Of a stretch of 64,000 bases of DNA, positions 38,192 through 42,447 are shown in pieces. Position numbers and translations under genes: made by a program. The notes beneath the pieces are model-generated. The model was not told the DNA's origin and searched no databases. It saw only the letters and a program-made list of their open reading frames with translations. Position 1 is the stretch's first letter. The number at the start of each line of letters is the position of its first letter. Origin of the DNA: an uncultured Erythrobacter sp. (GTDB lineage: Bacteria > Pseudomonadota > Alphaproteobacteria > Sphingomonadales > Sphingomonadaceae); assembly GCA_947501215.1 (NCBI GenBank), contig CANMUS010000002.1, positions 496,001-560,000 of the forward strand, written 5' to 3'.

Positions 38192-38418
38192 TGTATGCAC
38201 CTCGTCGACTACGAGTGTAATTCGAAGACCCTAGTTTACGCTTTAGCGATGCTCGATGGCATTCCTTTGCGCGAAGTGCTGTTTCTCTGACCGAGGCAGT
38301 CGCATGTGGCGGCTGCCCCGATCGACCATCCAAGCCCATGCACGAGCGTTACGGGACTGTGCTCGGCTTCTGGTCCCACATGGCCGGTCATCCTGGTTCC
38401 CCCAAGGAGGATGATCCG

Positions 38419-38910
38419 ATGAAGACTATTGTACACTTGACTTTCGCCGCAGCCGCTTCGGCTGCCATTCTCGCCGCCCCGGTCGCGGCCGGACAGGACG
38501 ACGGCATCGTCGTGACCTCGCCTGCCGCCATGACCGAATGGATAGCGGATATGAACGCCCAGCTCGACCGCCAGCTGATCCGATCTGACGGGCACCGCAA
38601 TCCGGGCGTGATGAGCGCCATCGTGCAGCTTCGCTTCACGCTCGATGAAGCGGGCAAGCCGACAAACCTTCAGACCCTCCACCATTCAGGGTCACGGCGC
38701 GCTGCTCGCGTTGCAAAAATGGCTGTGCGCAATCTGCGTGGCTTCGACCGGGTTCCGGTGACCGGTGCATCGGACGCGACTTATCAGGCCAACCTCGTAT
38801 TCGCTCGTAATTCGGGCGAAGGCGAGACGCTCAAAGCCGAGCTGGCCGATCTGGAAAGAGTGCGCCTCGCTGCCGGTGACGGCGCGGATGTCATCATGCT
38901 CGGCGGCTGA
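38419..38910 (+). CDS. Exported TonB-C-domain-like protein (paralogue 1)
   Basis: A 163-residue protein with a signal peptide ending near APVAAGQ. The mature part has the TonB C-terminal pattern: VQLRFTLDEAGKPTNLQTLH, then a basic helix ARVAKMAVRNLRGF and a final strand. It lacks the membrane anchor and Pro-rich linker of true TonB, so it is not a classical energy transducer. The ribosome-binding site AAGGAGG is strong. The gene at 41950-42447 is a paralogue with a similar leader (AAGGA-GATCC before ATG). Confidence 0.75.
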   Translation: MKTIVHLTFAAAASAAILAAPVAAGQDDGIVVTSPAAMTEWIADMNAQLDRQLIRSDGHRNPGVMSAIVQLRFTLDEAGKPTNLQTLHHSGSRRAARVAKMAVRNLRGFDRVPVTGASDATYQANLVFARNSGEGETLKAELADLERVRLAAGDGADVIMLGG

Positions 38911-38930: not shown

Positions 38931-38969
38931 AAAAGCCATGGCCGCGCCCTTGATGGGGTGCGGCCATGG
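38931..38969 (-). terminator. Intrinsic terminator of GG-leader peptide gene A
   Basis: A 10-bp perfect stem (CCATGGCCGC/GCGGCCATGG) extended by an inner GC-rich part, followed on the minus strand by CTTTTGG. It lies 20 bases after the stop of the peptide gene. Confidence 0.65.
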
Positions 38970-38988
38970 CATGTGCGCGGACCTGGGA

Positions 38989-39219
38989 TTACAACGAACC
39001 GCGCGAGCCGAGCAGATCCTCGAAAGGATCGGGATACGGCATGATCGCCCCGTCCGTCGTCCAGTCGTCACCACTGTCGCCGAGCGGATCGGTGCCGCCC
39101 GAGACATCGTCGAGCGACGCCGGATCGAGTTGTTCGATCCGCGCCTTGGCCGCGTCCGCGGCATTGGCGATGACCGAAGCGAGCTGTGCCTGGCCGAGCC
39201 GTGCTGCCTTGCTTTTCAT
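38989..39219 (-). CDS. Double-glycine-leader peptide A
   Basis: A 76-residue peptide precursor. Residues 1-42 form a helical, Ala-rich leader ending LDPASLDDVSGG, which fits the double-glycine motif cut by C39-type peptidases. The 34-residue core is acidic, has no cysteine, and ends with TDGAIMPYPDPFEDLLG. The leader is 23/42 identical to that of the gene at 39407-39676, while the cores differ. GGAGAACCATC precedes the ATG. The gene has its own terminator. Function is unknown; a secreted or modified peptide is inferred. Confidence 0.7.
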   Translation of the reverse strand: MKSKAARLGQAQLASVIANAADAAKARIEQLDPASLDDVSGGTDPLGDSGDDWTTDGAIMPYPDPFEDLLGSRGSL

Positions 39220-39346
39220 GATGGTTCTCCTTCCATTGCTGGCCCGGAGATGGATTGAGCACGCACCAGCCGTCCGGACCCACGGCAGGGCGAAAATCTT
39301 GGAGCGCTGCTTTGGCGCAACCCCACTTCGCCGATCCGCAGCCTGC

Positions 39347-39389
39347 AAAGAAAAGGCGGGGACCGCGGCCAAGGGAGGCCGCGATCCCC
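39347..39389 (-). terminator. Intrinsic terminator of GG-leader peptide gene B
   Basis: A 13-bp stem (arms 39358-39370 and 39377-39389, one G-T pair) with a 6-base loop, followed on the minus strand by CCTTTTCTTT. It ends 18 bases after the peptide gene stop. Confidence 0.8.
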
Positions 39390-39406
39390 ATAGGCTCACG
39401 GGTTCG

Positions 39407-39676
39407 TTAGAACTCCGACGAATCGCCCCCGTTGAGGAAGTCGAGCCAGGGATCGGGTTGGGTCGGTGCCATACCGTCGGTAACGACATCGCCGATGTCG
39501 CCCACGCCTGGAAAGATGGAGCCGCCGGTGGGGCTGGATACAGGTTCGACGCCACCTGCGACGGCGTCGAGCGTCGCGCCATCCAGCTGAACGATGCGTG
39601 CTTTCGCGAGATCGCCGGCCTGGCCGAGGGCTGCTGTCAGATCGGCGCTGTCGAGACGCCCTGCCTTCTTCGTCAT
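39407..39676 (-). CDS. Double-glycine-leader peptide B
   Basis: An 89-residue precursor, paralogue of the peptide at 38989-39219. The leader is again exactly 42 residues and ends LDGATLDAVAGG. The 47-residue core is Gly/Pro/Asp-rich, has no cysteine and shares only its C-terminal module with the paralogue: TDGMAPTQPDPWLDFLNGG. AAGGAAACTACC precedes ATG. A strong terminator follows. Conserved leader with a divergent core is the usual pattern in exported or ribosomally made, modified peptides; no modifying enzyme or C39 exporter is adjacent. Confidence 0.72.
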   Translation of the reverse strand: MTKKAGRLDSADLTAALGQAGDLAKARIVQLDGATLDAVAGGVEPVSSPTGGSIFPGVGDIGDVVTDGMAPTQPDPWLDFLNGGDSSEF

Positions 39677-39701: not shown

Positions 39702-40166
39702 TCAAGCGGTGACCCGTTCCCTGCGGTCCGGGGGGCCGACAGGCGAGGGTGTTGCGTGAACATGCGGCGAGACTGCGTCGCTCTTCTTGCGGCGCGTCAC
39801 GATCTGGGGGCAGCGCAGGCAGCTCGCAGTGCCGTTTTCGGCAAACCAGCGGCAGGTTGCGCGCAGGGTGCAGCCAGGTGCGACATCGACGACCGGTTGC
39901 AGGCGCTTGATGATTTCGCGTCCCAACCCGCAGCCGCCCTCTTTCCATTGTCCGCAGCCCTTGTTGGCGCAGGGTGCGGCGAAGCGGAGCGCATGGCCGG
40001 GATCGACGCCGAGCTGTTCGGCGTCGAAATCTTCCGGCAGATCGACGCCCTTCTCGACATAGGAGACGCGGGGCGGGCCTTTTTCCTCGAGCACGACGCC
40101 CAGCAGACGCGCTTCGGGATGCTGGTGTGGCGCGCTGGGGCAATCCAGCTGCTTTTTTTCGGCCAT
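39702..40166 (-). CDS. Conserved cysteine-rich protein next to GG-leader peptides
   Basis: A 154-residue soluble protein. After an N-terminal part with VLEEKGPPRVSYVEKG it carries three Cys clusters: CANKGCGQWKEGGC, CTLRATCRWF and CLRCPQIVTRR. The CRWF-x-ENG-x2-SC-x2-CP region recalls small proteins in cyanobacteria and proteobacteria that are sometimes labelled 'nitrogen fixation protein' without evidence; this is from memory. It probably binds zinc or an iron-sulfur cluster. It lies 25 bases upstream of peptide B on the same strand, so a role with the peptides is plausible but inferred. Confidence 0.7.
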   Translation of the reverse strand: MAEKKQLDCPSAPHQHPEARLLGVVLEEKGPPRVSYVEKGVDLPEDFDAEQLGVDPGHALRFAAPCANKGCGQWKEGGCGLGREIIKRLQPVVDVAPGCTLRATCRWFAENGTASCLRCPQIVTRRKKSDAVSPHVHATPSPVGPPDRRERVTA

Positions 40167-41642: not shown

Positions 41643-41949
41643 CGAGTCGCTCGCAAGACGCCATTCGAGCCGGTCACTTTGAATGCCGTTGCGGGTTCAA
41701 AATTGTTAACCACAGCGCGGAAAGTGCTTTCGCTCGTTATATAGTTGCAACTTTGTATAGATCCGACATGTTAATATGACCCGATTTTGACATTAGTAGC
41801 GATTCATGTATTCACGAAGACGTCGCGAGCGTCCGCAGAAGCCTCAACGCTGATCGACCAAAGACCGCTATCGCTATAAAACAAGGTTTGTCGCACTTCG
41901 TGTGATACTCTCTTCGGCCGATCATCCTCTATACGTAAAGGATGATCCC
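41643..41949. other. A+T-rich intergenic region with a candidate sigma-70 promoter
   Basis: 307 bases without a gene, clearly poorer in G+C than the surroundings. TTGACA (41787-41792), 16 bases and TATTCA (41809-41814) form the best promoter candidate, giving a leader of about 130 bases before the TonB-C paralogue at 41950. Confidence 0.4.
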
Positions 41950-42447
41950 ATGAATAAGCTTTCCATATTCGCCATGTCCGTTGCCGTCACGGCATCGCTG
42001 CTGGCCACGCCGCTGGCGTCGCAGGAGATCGTCGTGTCACCTACCTCGCCCAGCGAGTTCGCGGATAATGTGCAGAAGGATCTGGACCGGCACCTACGAC
42101 AGATACGCGTTTCACCCCAATCGGCTCCAAGCGGTGCCGCGAGTGTGCGCTTCACCGCCGGTGTCGACGGACGCCCGGAAAACGTGACTATCTATCGCAA
42201 GTCCGGCTCATCCCAGGTAGACCGGGCGAGCCGACGCGCAGTCTCGCGACTTACCAGCCTTTCACCATTGCCGCGGGGCAGTGCGAACGGCCAGGTCATT
42301 CAGGCGAACATCATTTTCGCCAATAACGAGAAGCAAGCCGAGCGGCTCTCGCGCCAATTGGCGCGCGAAGAAAGTCGTCGGCTCGCGTCGTCCCCGGCGG
42401 AGCGCAGCGTCCTCGCGCTGACGGTCGGGGGGCCCCCTGTCTCCTGA
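41950..42447 (+). CDS. Exported TonB-C-domain-like protein (paralogue 2)
   Basis: A 165-residue protein with a signal peptide ending near LATPLASQ. It shares the layout of the protein at 38419-38910: SPTSPSEFADNVQKDLDRHL early, then VRFTAGVDGRPENVTIYRKS and the basic helix VDRASRRAVSRL of TonB C-terminal domains. It also lacks an anchor and Pro-rich linker. AAAGGATGATCCC precedes ATG. Duplication of one ancestor is likely. Confidence 0.72.
   Translation: MNKLSIFAMSVAVTASLLATPLASQEIVVSPTSPSEFADNVQKDLDRHLRQIRVSPQSAPSGAASVRFTAGVDGRPENVTIYRKSGSSQVDRASRRAVSRLTSLSPLPRGSANGQVIQANIIFANNEKQAERLSRQLAREESRRLASSPAERSVLALTVGGPPVS

Follow-up and report, generated by a model that had tools for sequence, protein, structure and literature searches.

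We find that two small genes for double-glycine peptide precursors, B and A, belong to a conserved three-gene unit headed by a cysteine-rich protein, CysR, and we propose that this is an exported-peptide unit, in which a C39 exporter encoded elsewhere would cleave the peptides in trans and CysR would act on the intracellular precursor. Judged from the genes and their relatives, this proposal as a whole stands at roughly even chances; export in trans, taken by itself, appears somewhat more probable, and that CysR and the peptides work together is very probable, the link being well supported. The unit lies in a window of 64,000 nucleotides, the whole stretch of DNA analyzed here (C2:496001-560000 of a 3.04-Mb genome in 13 contigs).

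The three genes follow one another on the minus strand in the order CysR, B, A. CysR, the first gene of the unit, is an open reading frame (ORF) of 154 residues at 39702-40166; after a gap of 25 nt comes B (39407-39676, 89 residues), and after a further 187 nt comes A (38989-39219, 76 residues). The initial annotation covered 38931-39676, an interval that ends just short of CysR, the third member of the unit. Its description of the two minus-strand genes was reproduced: each encodes a 42-residue leader, in B by codons 39676-39551, ending LDGATLDAVAGG, and in A by codons 39219-39094, ending LDPASLDDVSGG. The 47-residue core of B follows at 39550-39410 (stop 39409-39407) and the 34-residue core of A at 39093-38992 (stop 38991-38989). 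The leaders are identical at 23 of 42 positions, a value that was not attained when one leader was shuffled 100,000 times (maximum 16).

A ribosome-binding site and a terminator had been assigned to each gene as well, and both assignments hold up. Shine-Dalgarno-like sequences, AGGAG for A and AAGGAAA for B, precede the start codons, and relatives have similar purine-rich stretches. An intrinsic terminator hairpin, detected by pattern scan and by folding, follows B at 39357-39390 on the minus strand, and a terminator-like hairpin with a U-run follows A at 38931-38970 on the same strand (stem 38970-38935, U-run 38934-38931). Both fold better than shuffled sequence (z of -4.36 for B and -4.37 for A); the simple terminator scan reported the B hairpin alone. 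Since separate hairpins follow B and A, A may be transcribed separately. A scan of the region for sigma-70-type promoters found none, which says little in this bacterial group, and Rfam gave a single match, far under its gathering score (E of 0.031). Two similar small proteins with TonB-C-terminus-like domains, encoded at 38338-38910 and 41902-42447 (+), flank the unit; the domain at 38338-38910 scores below the Pfam cut-off.

On comparative evidence, A and B are real genes whose leaders and cores are both under purifying selection. Among close orthologues (four genomes for A and three for B, with the gaplessly aligned B pair G046-G047 left out), pairwise dN/dS was 0.04-0.25 for leaders and 0.07-0.30 for cores. 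The double-glycine pattern alone is not rare, occurring in 14 of 361 other small predicted ORFs of the fetched loci, many of them from C39 loci. In the window, it was matched by 1 of 240 ATG-started ORFs of 40-130 residues with the filter used, a count that misses A, whose frame opens at an earlier ATG (197 residues), and B, whose frame starts 29 codons earlier and places the motif beyond the filter limit of 60. A chance motif was nevertheless rejected as an explanation, because both genes are conserved, with dN/dS far below 1, and other genera retain the motif.

The claim that the leaders carry a C39-type signal is supported in detail. According to a published study, the determinants of cleavage by C39 peptidases are hydrophobic residues at -12, -7, and -4 together with GG or GA, GA being named as an accepted form of the site (PMC6363468). 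Both leaders have the canonical double-glycine site, L-12, L-7, V-4, and GG. Homologues with a conserved junction, which the initial annotation had proposed to look for, were found as well: the leader ends across the family are LDPASLDDVSGG, LDGATLDAVAGG, IEDPALDAVAGG, LDGSDVDQVSGA, LDADGIDSVSGG, and LDADGIANVSGG, and every aligned member keeps the hydrophobic positions followed by GG or, in G071, by GA. Against the leader models that NCBIfam has for NHLP and Nif11 precursors, neither leader gave a match at an E value of 1 or below.

The peptides have a narrow distribution. In a 60-genome genus set, B has orthologues in four other genomes (G050, G025, G046, and G047; 83-94% identity) and A in three of these, while G009 has a single, more distant copy; a match in G005 (E of 0.003) was discounted because it overlaps a 598-residue frame. 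One copy each is also present in G071, G385, and G329, which belong to other genera of the family; it occupies the same chromosomal position, flanked by a nadB-like flavoprotein gene and an alpha/beta hydrolase gene (both assigned by domain). Across 396 genomes of the order, the peptides occur in 7 at E below 1e-20, and 13 further genomes gave matches at E of 9e-4 to 0.009 that we take as chance. A search of 72,556 plasmid records for signs of a mobile-element origin gave no match for B.

CysR follows the peptides closely, lying 25-60 nt upstream of a peptide gene in 9 of 9 genomes. Within the genus set, it is present in exactly the six peptide genomes, plus a distant copy (28%) in G055, beside which no double-glycine peptide was seen. 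Across the order set, it is found in nine genomes, namely, the seven with peptides, G055, and G260; in G260 (one contig), CysR is a remnant cut after about 80 residues and is accompanied by neither the peptide nor a C39 domain. The metagenome-assembled genome G047 retains B, has a CysR altered near the C terminus, lacks A beside a run of N, and had no detectable C39 domain, a pattern that assembly faults could explain and that carries little weight either way. The initial annotation had reported no adjacent maturase or exporter; the exporter is indeed unlinked, but the conserved adjacent partner had been overlooked.

CysR itself is under purifying selection (pairwise dN/dS of 0.05-0.11 in four genomes) and has eight conserved cysteines, C9, C66, C71, C79, C99, C105, C116, and C119. 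In a 14-row alignment, R61, C66, C71, C79, C99, C105, W107, G112, C116, and C119 are invariant, and C9 is absent in one row only, which starts later. The eight cysteines suggest that CysR is probably a metal- or Fe-S-binding protein. It had no match to Pfam or NCBIfam at an E value of 1 or below, and no catalytic domain was recognized. AlphaFold models were weak (mean pLDDT of 39 for the first and 59 for the second); with the model, Foldseek gave 0 matches at E of 0.001 or below among 75 at E of 10 or below, and VIA-align gave 0 of 204 chains with Z of 2 or above. Comparison with PDB sequences gave one match, which was not significant (E of 0.12). Selenocysteine was considered and rejected, an in-frame TGA having been flagged in three relatives (L162, L163, and L164); in L162 and L164, it comes after the last cysteine and marks the gene end.

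As for the machinery that would act in trans, the genome does encode a C39-type peptidase, the existence of which the initial annotation had left as a point to check. Its one C39 domain belongs to a peptidase-ABC exporter paired with an HlyD partner, and a CHASE2 histidine kinase and a NarL-like response regulator are encoded nearby. The distance between peptides and exporter is about 235 kb here (G000), 43 kb in G009, 40 kb in G329, 176 kb in G071, and 644 kb in G385. Orthologues of this exporter at 65% identity or more, which we call own-type, occur in at least 13 of the 396 order genomes, including 7 of 7 that bear the peptides and at least 6 of 389 others (G269, G315, G128, G098, G317, and G381 have the exporter without A or B). 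This co-occurrence, confined to three genera of one family and uncorrected for phylogeny, has P of 6e-12 by genomes and 2e-4 by genera (3 of 3 within 6 of 84). In the genus set, the own-type exporter was found in 5 of 60 genomes, G050 among them, and all five are among the six with peptides, G047 being the one in which it was not detected.

The motif and the co-occurrence together lead us to infer that the C39 exporter uses A and B. Double-glycine peptides are, however, also encoded at the exporter loci themselves, and A and B are therefore not necessarily what the exporter handles: the locus of this genome has at least one such peptide, and those of relatives encode one to several short-leader GG or GA peptides by a pattern scan that includes chance matches. 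The eight own-type exporters listed (L013, L048, L126-L130, and L145) keep the catalytic Cys and His and have Asn at the catalytic Asp position (HNPDG or similar), while the five other C39 domains listed have Asp. In papain-like proteases, Asn at this position is compatible with activity, and we therefore treat it as a reason for caution and not as a sign of loss.

The exporter loci hold further candidates. At L013 5974-6132 (+), at about 768 kb of C2, lies a short-leader double-glycine peptide (MNKTAGEILIEDEVELVVGG / NDETDTSVVTPPPPGPEDILNWMPPWRSPMQS), and its position near the CHASE2 histidine kinase and the NarL-like regulator makes a peptide signaling circuit possible. About 6 kb upstream of the HlyD gene, L013 641-913 (+) encodes a possible double-glycine peptide (LDEAEMTVICGG) with two adjacent core cysteines. 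The loci L048, L126, and L128 have several GG or GA peptides, some with glycine-zipper cores like those of class II microcins.

Our proposal can be put as a sequence of steps. The precursors would be made with a 42-residue leader, the last 12 residues of which form the C39 cleavage site. CysR would act on the precursor in the cytoplasm, ahead of export, by binding, holding, or maturing it, and would deliver the bound precursor to the exporter. The single C39-ABC/HlyD exporter would then cut after Gly42 and export the acidic, cysteine-free cores of 34 and 47 residues in trans. If we were to guess at how CysR works, it could be a metal-binding holder or a maturase that contacts the precursor through leader residues 1-30.

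The cores offer some hints of function. They are acidic and cysteine-free, as previously stated, with 8 D/E and 1 K/R in A and 8 D/E and 0 K/R in B. They had also been described as divergent, and A and B do differ, but they are not freely diverging: a T-x-G-[MA] motif is common to A, B, and homologues in other genera (TDGMAP, TDGAIMP, TDGAVMP, TMGMYP, and TAGM in the aligned cores), as are acidic residues and an L or F at the C terminus. This shared motif and the purifying selection suggest a fixed function and not that of a fast-evolving toxin, and conserved cores are easier to reconcile with a signal, or with a role related to structure or metals, than with an arms-race toxin. A C-terminal pattern, T.G[MFYA].{0,2}P, chosen after the sequences had been seen, falls within the final 50 residues in 9 of 393 small ORFs, namely, eight family members and the G901 partner of CysR. 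Its strict form is missing in two of six family cores (G385 and G329), and by eye the end motif T-x-G-[MFYA]..P is also present in the G445 partner.

These two partners belong to the wider range of CysR relatives, which extend to other alphaproteobacteria, Streptomyces, Nostoc, and Spirosoma and in most cases have a small ORF next to them. CysR was found in 2 genomes outside the family of the window among 385 of the class and in 7 of the 149 genomes in the family to which G445 belongs, a count that includes G445. We take this family to be Rhodobacteraceae, since the neighbors and partners are similar to those in Candidatus Rhodobacter lobularis (L065). Distant matches occur on eight plasmid records, and among 50,697 phage records there is one match, MT836289 (L166), an unverified fecal scaffold. 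This record is filed as Bacteriophage sp., its other ORFs look bacterial, and it is possibly mislabeled. We assembled 19 CysR loci beyond the window-type set: G055, G260, R. lobularis, G445, G673, G901, G935, G835, G873, G879, G893, A. vitis (one of three near-identical records), Streptomyces (three places on two plasmids), Spirosoma, Nostoc, Polymorphobacter, and L166.

A double-glycine precursor lies directly upstream of CysR at 2 of the 19 loci. The Spirosoma precursor (LTDDALDAVSGG) adjoins NHLP export genes, and the Nostoc one is annotated as an NHLP precursor and is surrounded by Nif11 precursors and a radical-SAM maturase. None was seen beside CysR in the ORF lists of the other 17 (six with 1.5-kb flanks only), so that CysR must be able to function independently of C39 export. 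At 16 of 19 loci, CysR has an ORF of 45-165 residues next to it, and small ORFs are common by chance in GC-rich DNA; G055 has a 223-residue ORF in this place, none was recognized in G260, and none could be named in G673. Two partner groups are conserved between genomes, a 78-98-residue protein in R. lobularis, G835, G873, and G879 (loci L065 and L160-L163 of R. lobularis and related genomes) and a 105-125-residue protein in G445, G901, and A. vitis. In our reading, CysR would be first of all a partner of small proteins, which some lineages alone couple to export.

An N-terminal helix common to CysR partners is a lead that these loci provide. A 25-column profile of five window-family leaders was scored on 14 partners, with p values uncorrected for the 14 tests. 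In the expected register, shuffle p was 0.033 for L166, 0.023 for G445, and 0.14 for A. vitis; at another place, it was 0.025 for Polymorphobacter and 0.049 for one Streptomyces; the other nine partners gave p above 0.05. Among 369 control ORFs, 11 score as high as L166, 6 as high as G445, and 44 as high as A. vitis. In hhalign, the window leaders align with the N terminus of the group of G445, G901, and A. vitis plus L166 at E of 0.0013 with a probability of just 18%, and the profile-profile test against the other partner group gave nothing. A bolder reading, which we regard as doubtful, is that CysR founds a new cross-phylum family of cysteine-rich precursor-binding proteins that would read an N-terminal helix of the R-x-x-[IL]-S-x-x-x-L type in otherwise unrelated partners, with lineages attaching different fates to them, including C39 export of acidic peptides in Erythrobacter/Qipengyuania. 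The peptides would then be new exported signals or cofactors and not bacteriocins.

The same loci raise the most serious alternative to export, a two-protein complex of CysR and peptide that stays inside the cell, perhaps as a metal or redox module; GG would then be a hinge or incidental, and nothing would be exported. Such complexes may exist in other alphaproteobacteria, in which CysR accompanies small proteins that have no GG site. Most CysR loci beyond the window-type set pair CysR with a small ORF that has no GG leader, the hhalign result, at its low probability, would link the window leaders to partners of this kind, and the end motif is found again in the G901 partner and, by eye, in that of G445. 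However, every window-type member aligned keeps the full C39 recognition pattern, beyond GG, and the own-type exporter accompanies the peptides in 7 of 7 genomes of the order sample, so that we consider an intracellular complex unlikely. Still less probable are modified RiPPs, for which CysR would be a new kind of maturase that acts on the T-x-G-[MA] core motif before C39 cleavage. The conservation of this motif across genera would fit, as would the RiPP precursor or maturase genes beside CysR in Nostoc and Polymorphobacter, the latter locus combining an ORF of 83 residues with a cyclophane-type radical-SAM/SPASM gene that scores below family cut-offs. On the other side, CysR has no recognized catalytic domain, no known maturase was recognized next to A and B, and a maturase search confined to SPASM radical-SAM domains found none in any of the 8 peptide genomes. 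It is improbable that the peptides are ordinary class II microcins or bacteriocins whose export genes are unlinked, for although the leader type, the small size, the C39/HlyD exporter in the genome, and the glycine-zipper and other microcin-like double-glycine peptides at some relatives' exporter loci are all consistent with this, the cores are acidic, common to several genera, and under purifying selection, no immunity gene was recognized near A and B in the ORF lists, and the unit keeps the same chromosomal site in the genomes viewed and a conserved CysR partner.

If the exported-peptide reading is right, the peptides are a new exported family in the Erythrobacter/Qipengyuania lineage, and CysR represents a family of partner proteins encoded beside small ORFs in Pseudomonadota, Actinomycetota, Cyanobacteriota, and Bacteroidota. 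CysR could then anchor searches for precursors that precursor-based searches miss, and the natural pattern of presence and absence makes the claim of export in trans directly testable. Literature searches surfaced no description of the A/B family or of CysR, which does not by itself establish their absence from print.

Among known systems, EbfG1-4 and PteB of Synechococcus elongatus are close in kind, the EbfG proteins being small and carrying a GG motif and PteB being a transporter with a peptidase domain, with a role in biofilms (PMC4997328). The two systems share GG small proteins and a C39 peptidase-ABC exporter (PCAT/AMS), and a nonkilling role is possible for A and B also; they differ in that A and B have another sequence, a longer leader of 42 residues with the C39 motif in the last 12, a CysR partner, and an unlinked exporter. 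The NHLP and Nif11 precursors are GG precursors tied by phylogenetic profile to a C39 transporter of the TIGR03794/03796/03797 cassette (PMC2887384), a type of link that A and B share; TIGR03796 is also the best NCBIfam match of the exporter found here, though far below cut-off (463.5 versus 853.3 bits). In contrast, the A and B leaders match neither group, the exporter locus has one C39-ABC gene plus HlyD, and no known maturase was recognized beside A and B. The peptides encoded at own-type exporter loci have the same C39 motif and occur in the same genomes as A and B, but their leaders are shorter, they adjoin the exporter, and they lack CysR. C39-exported peptides are thus a known kind, while the A/B family and its CysR partner, which have no Pfam or NCBIfam model, appear to be new.
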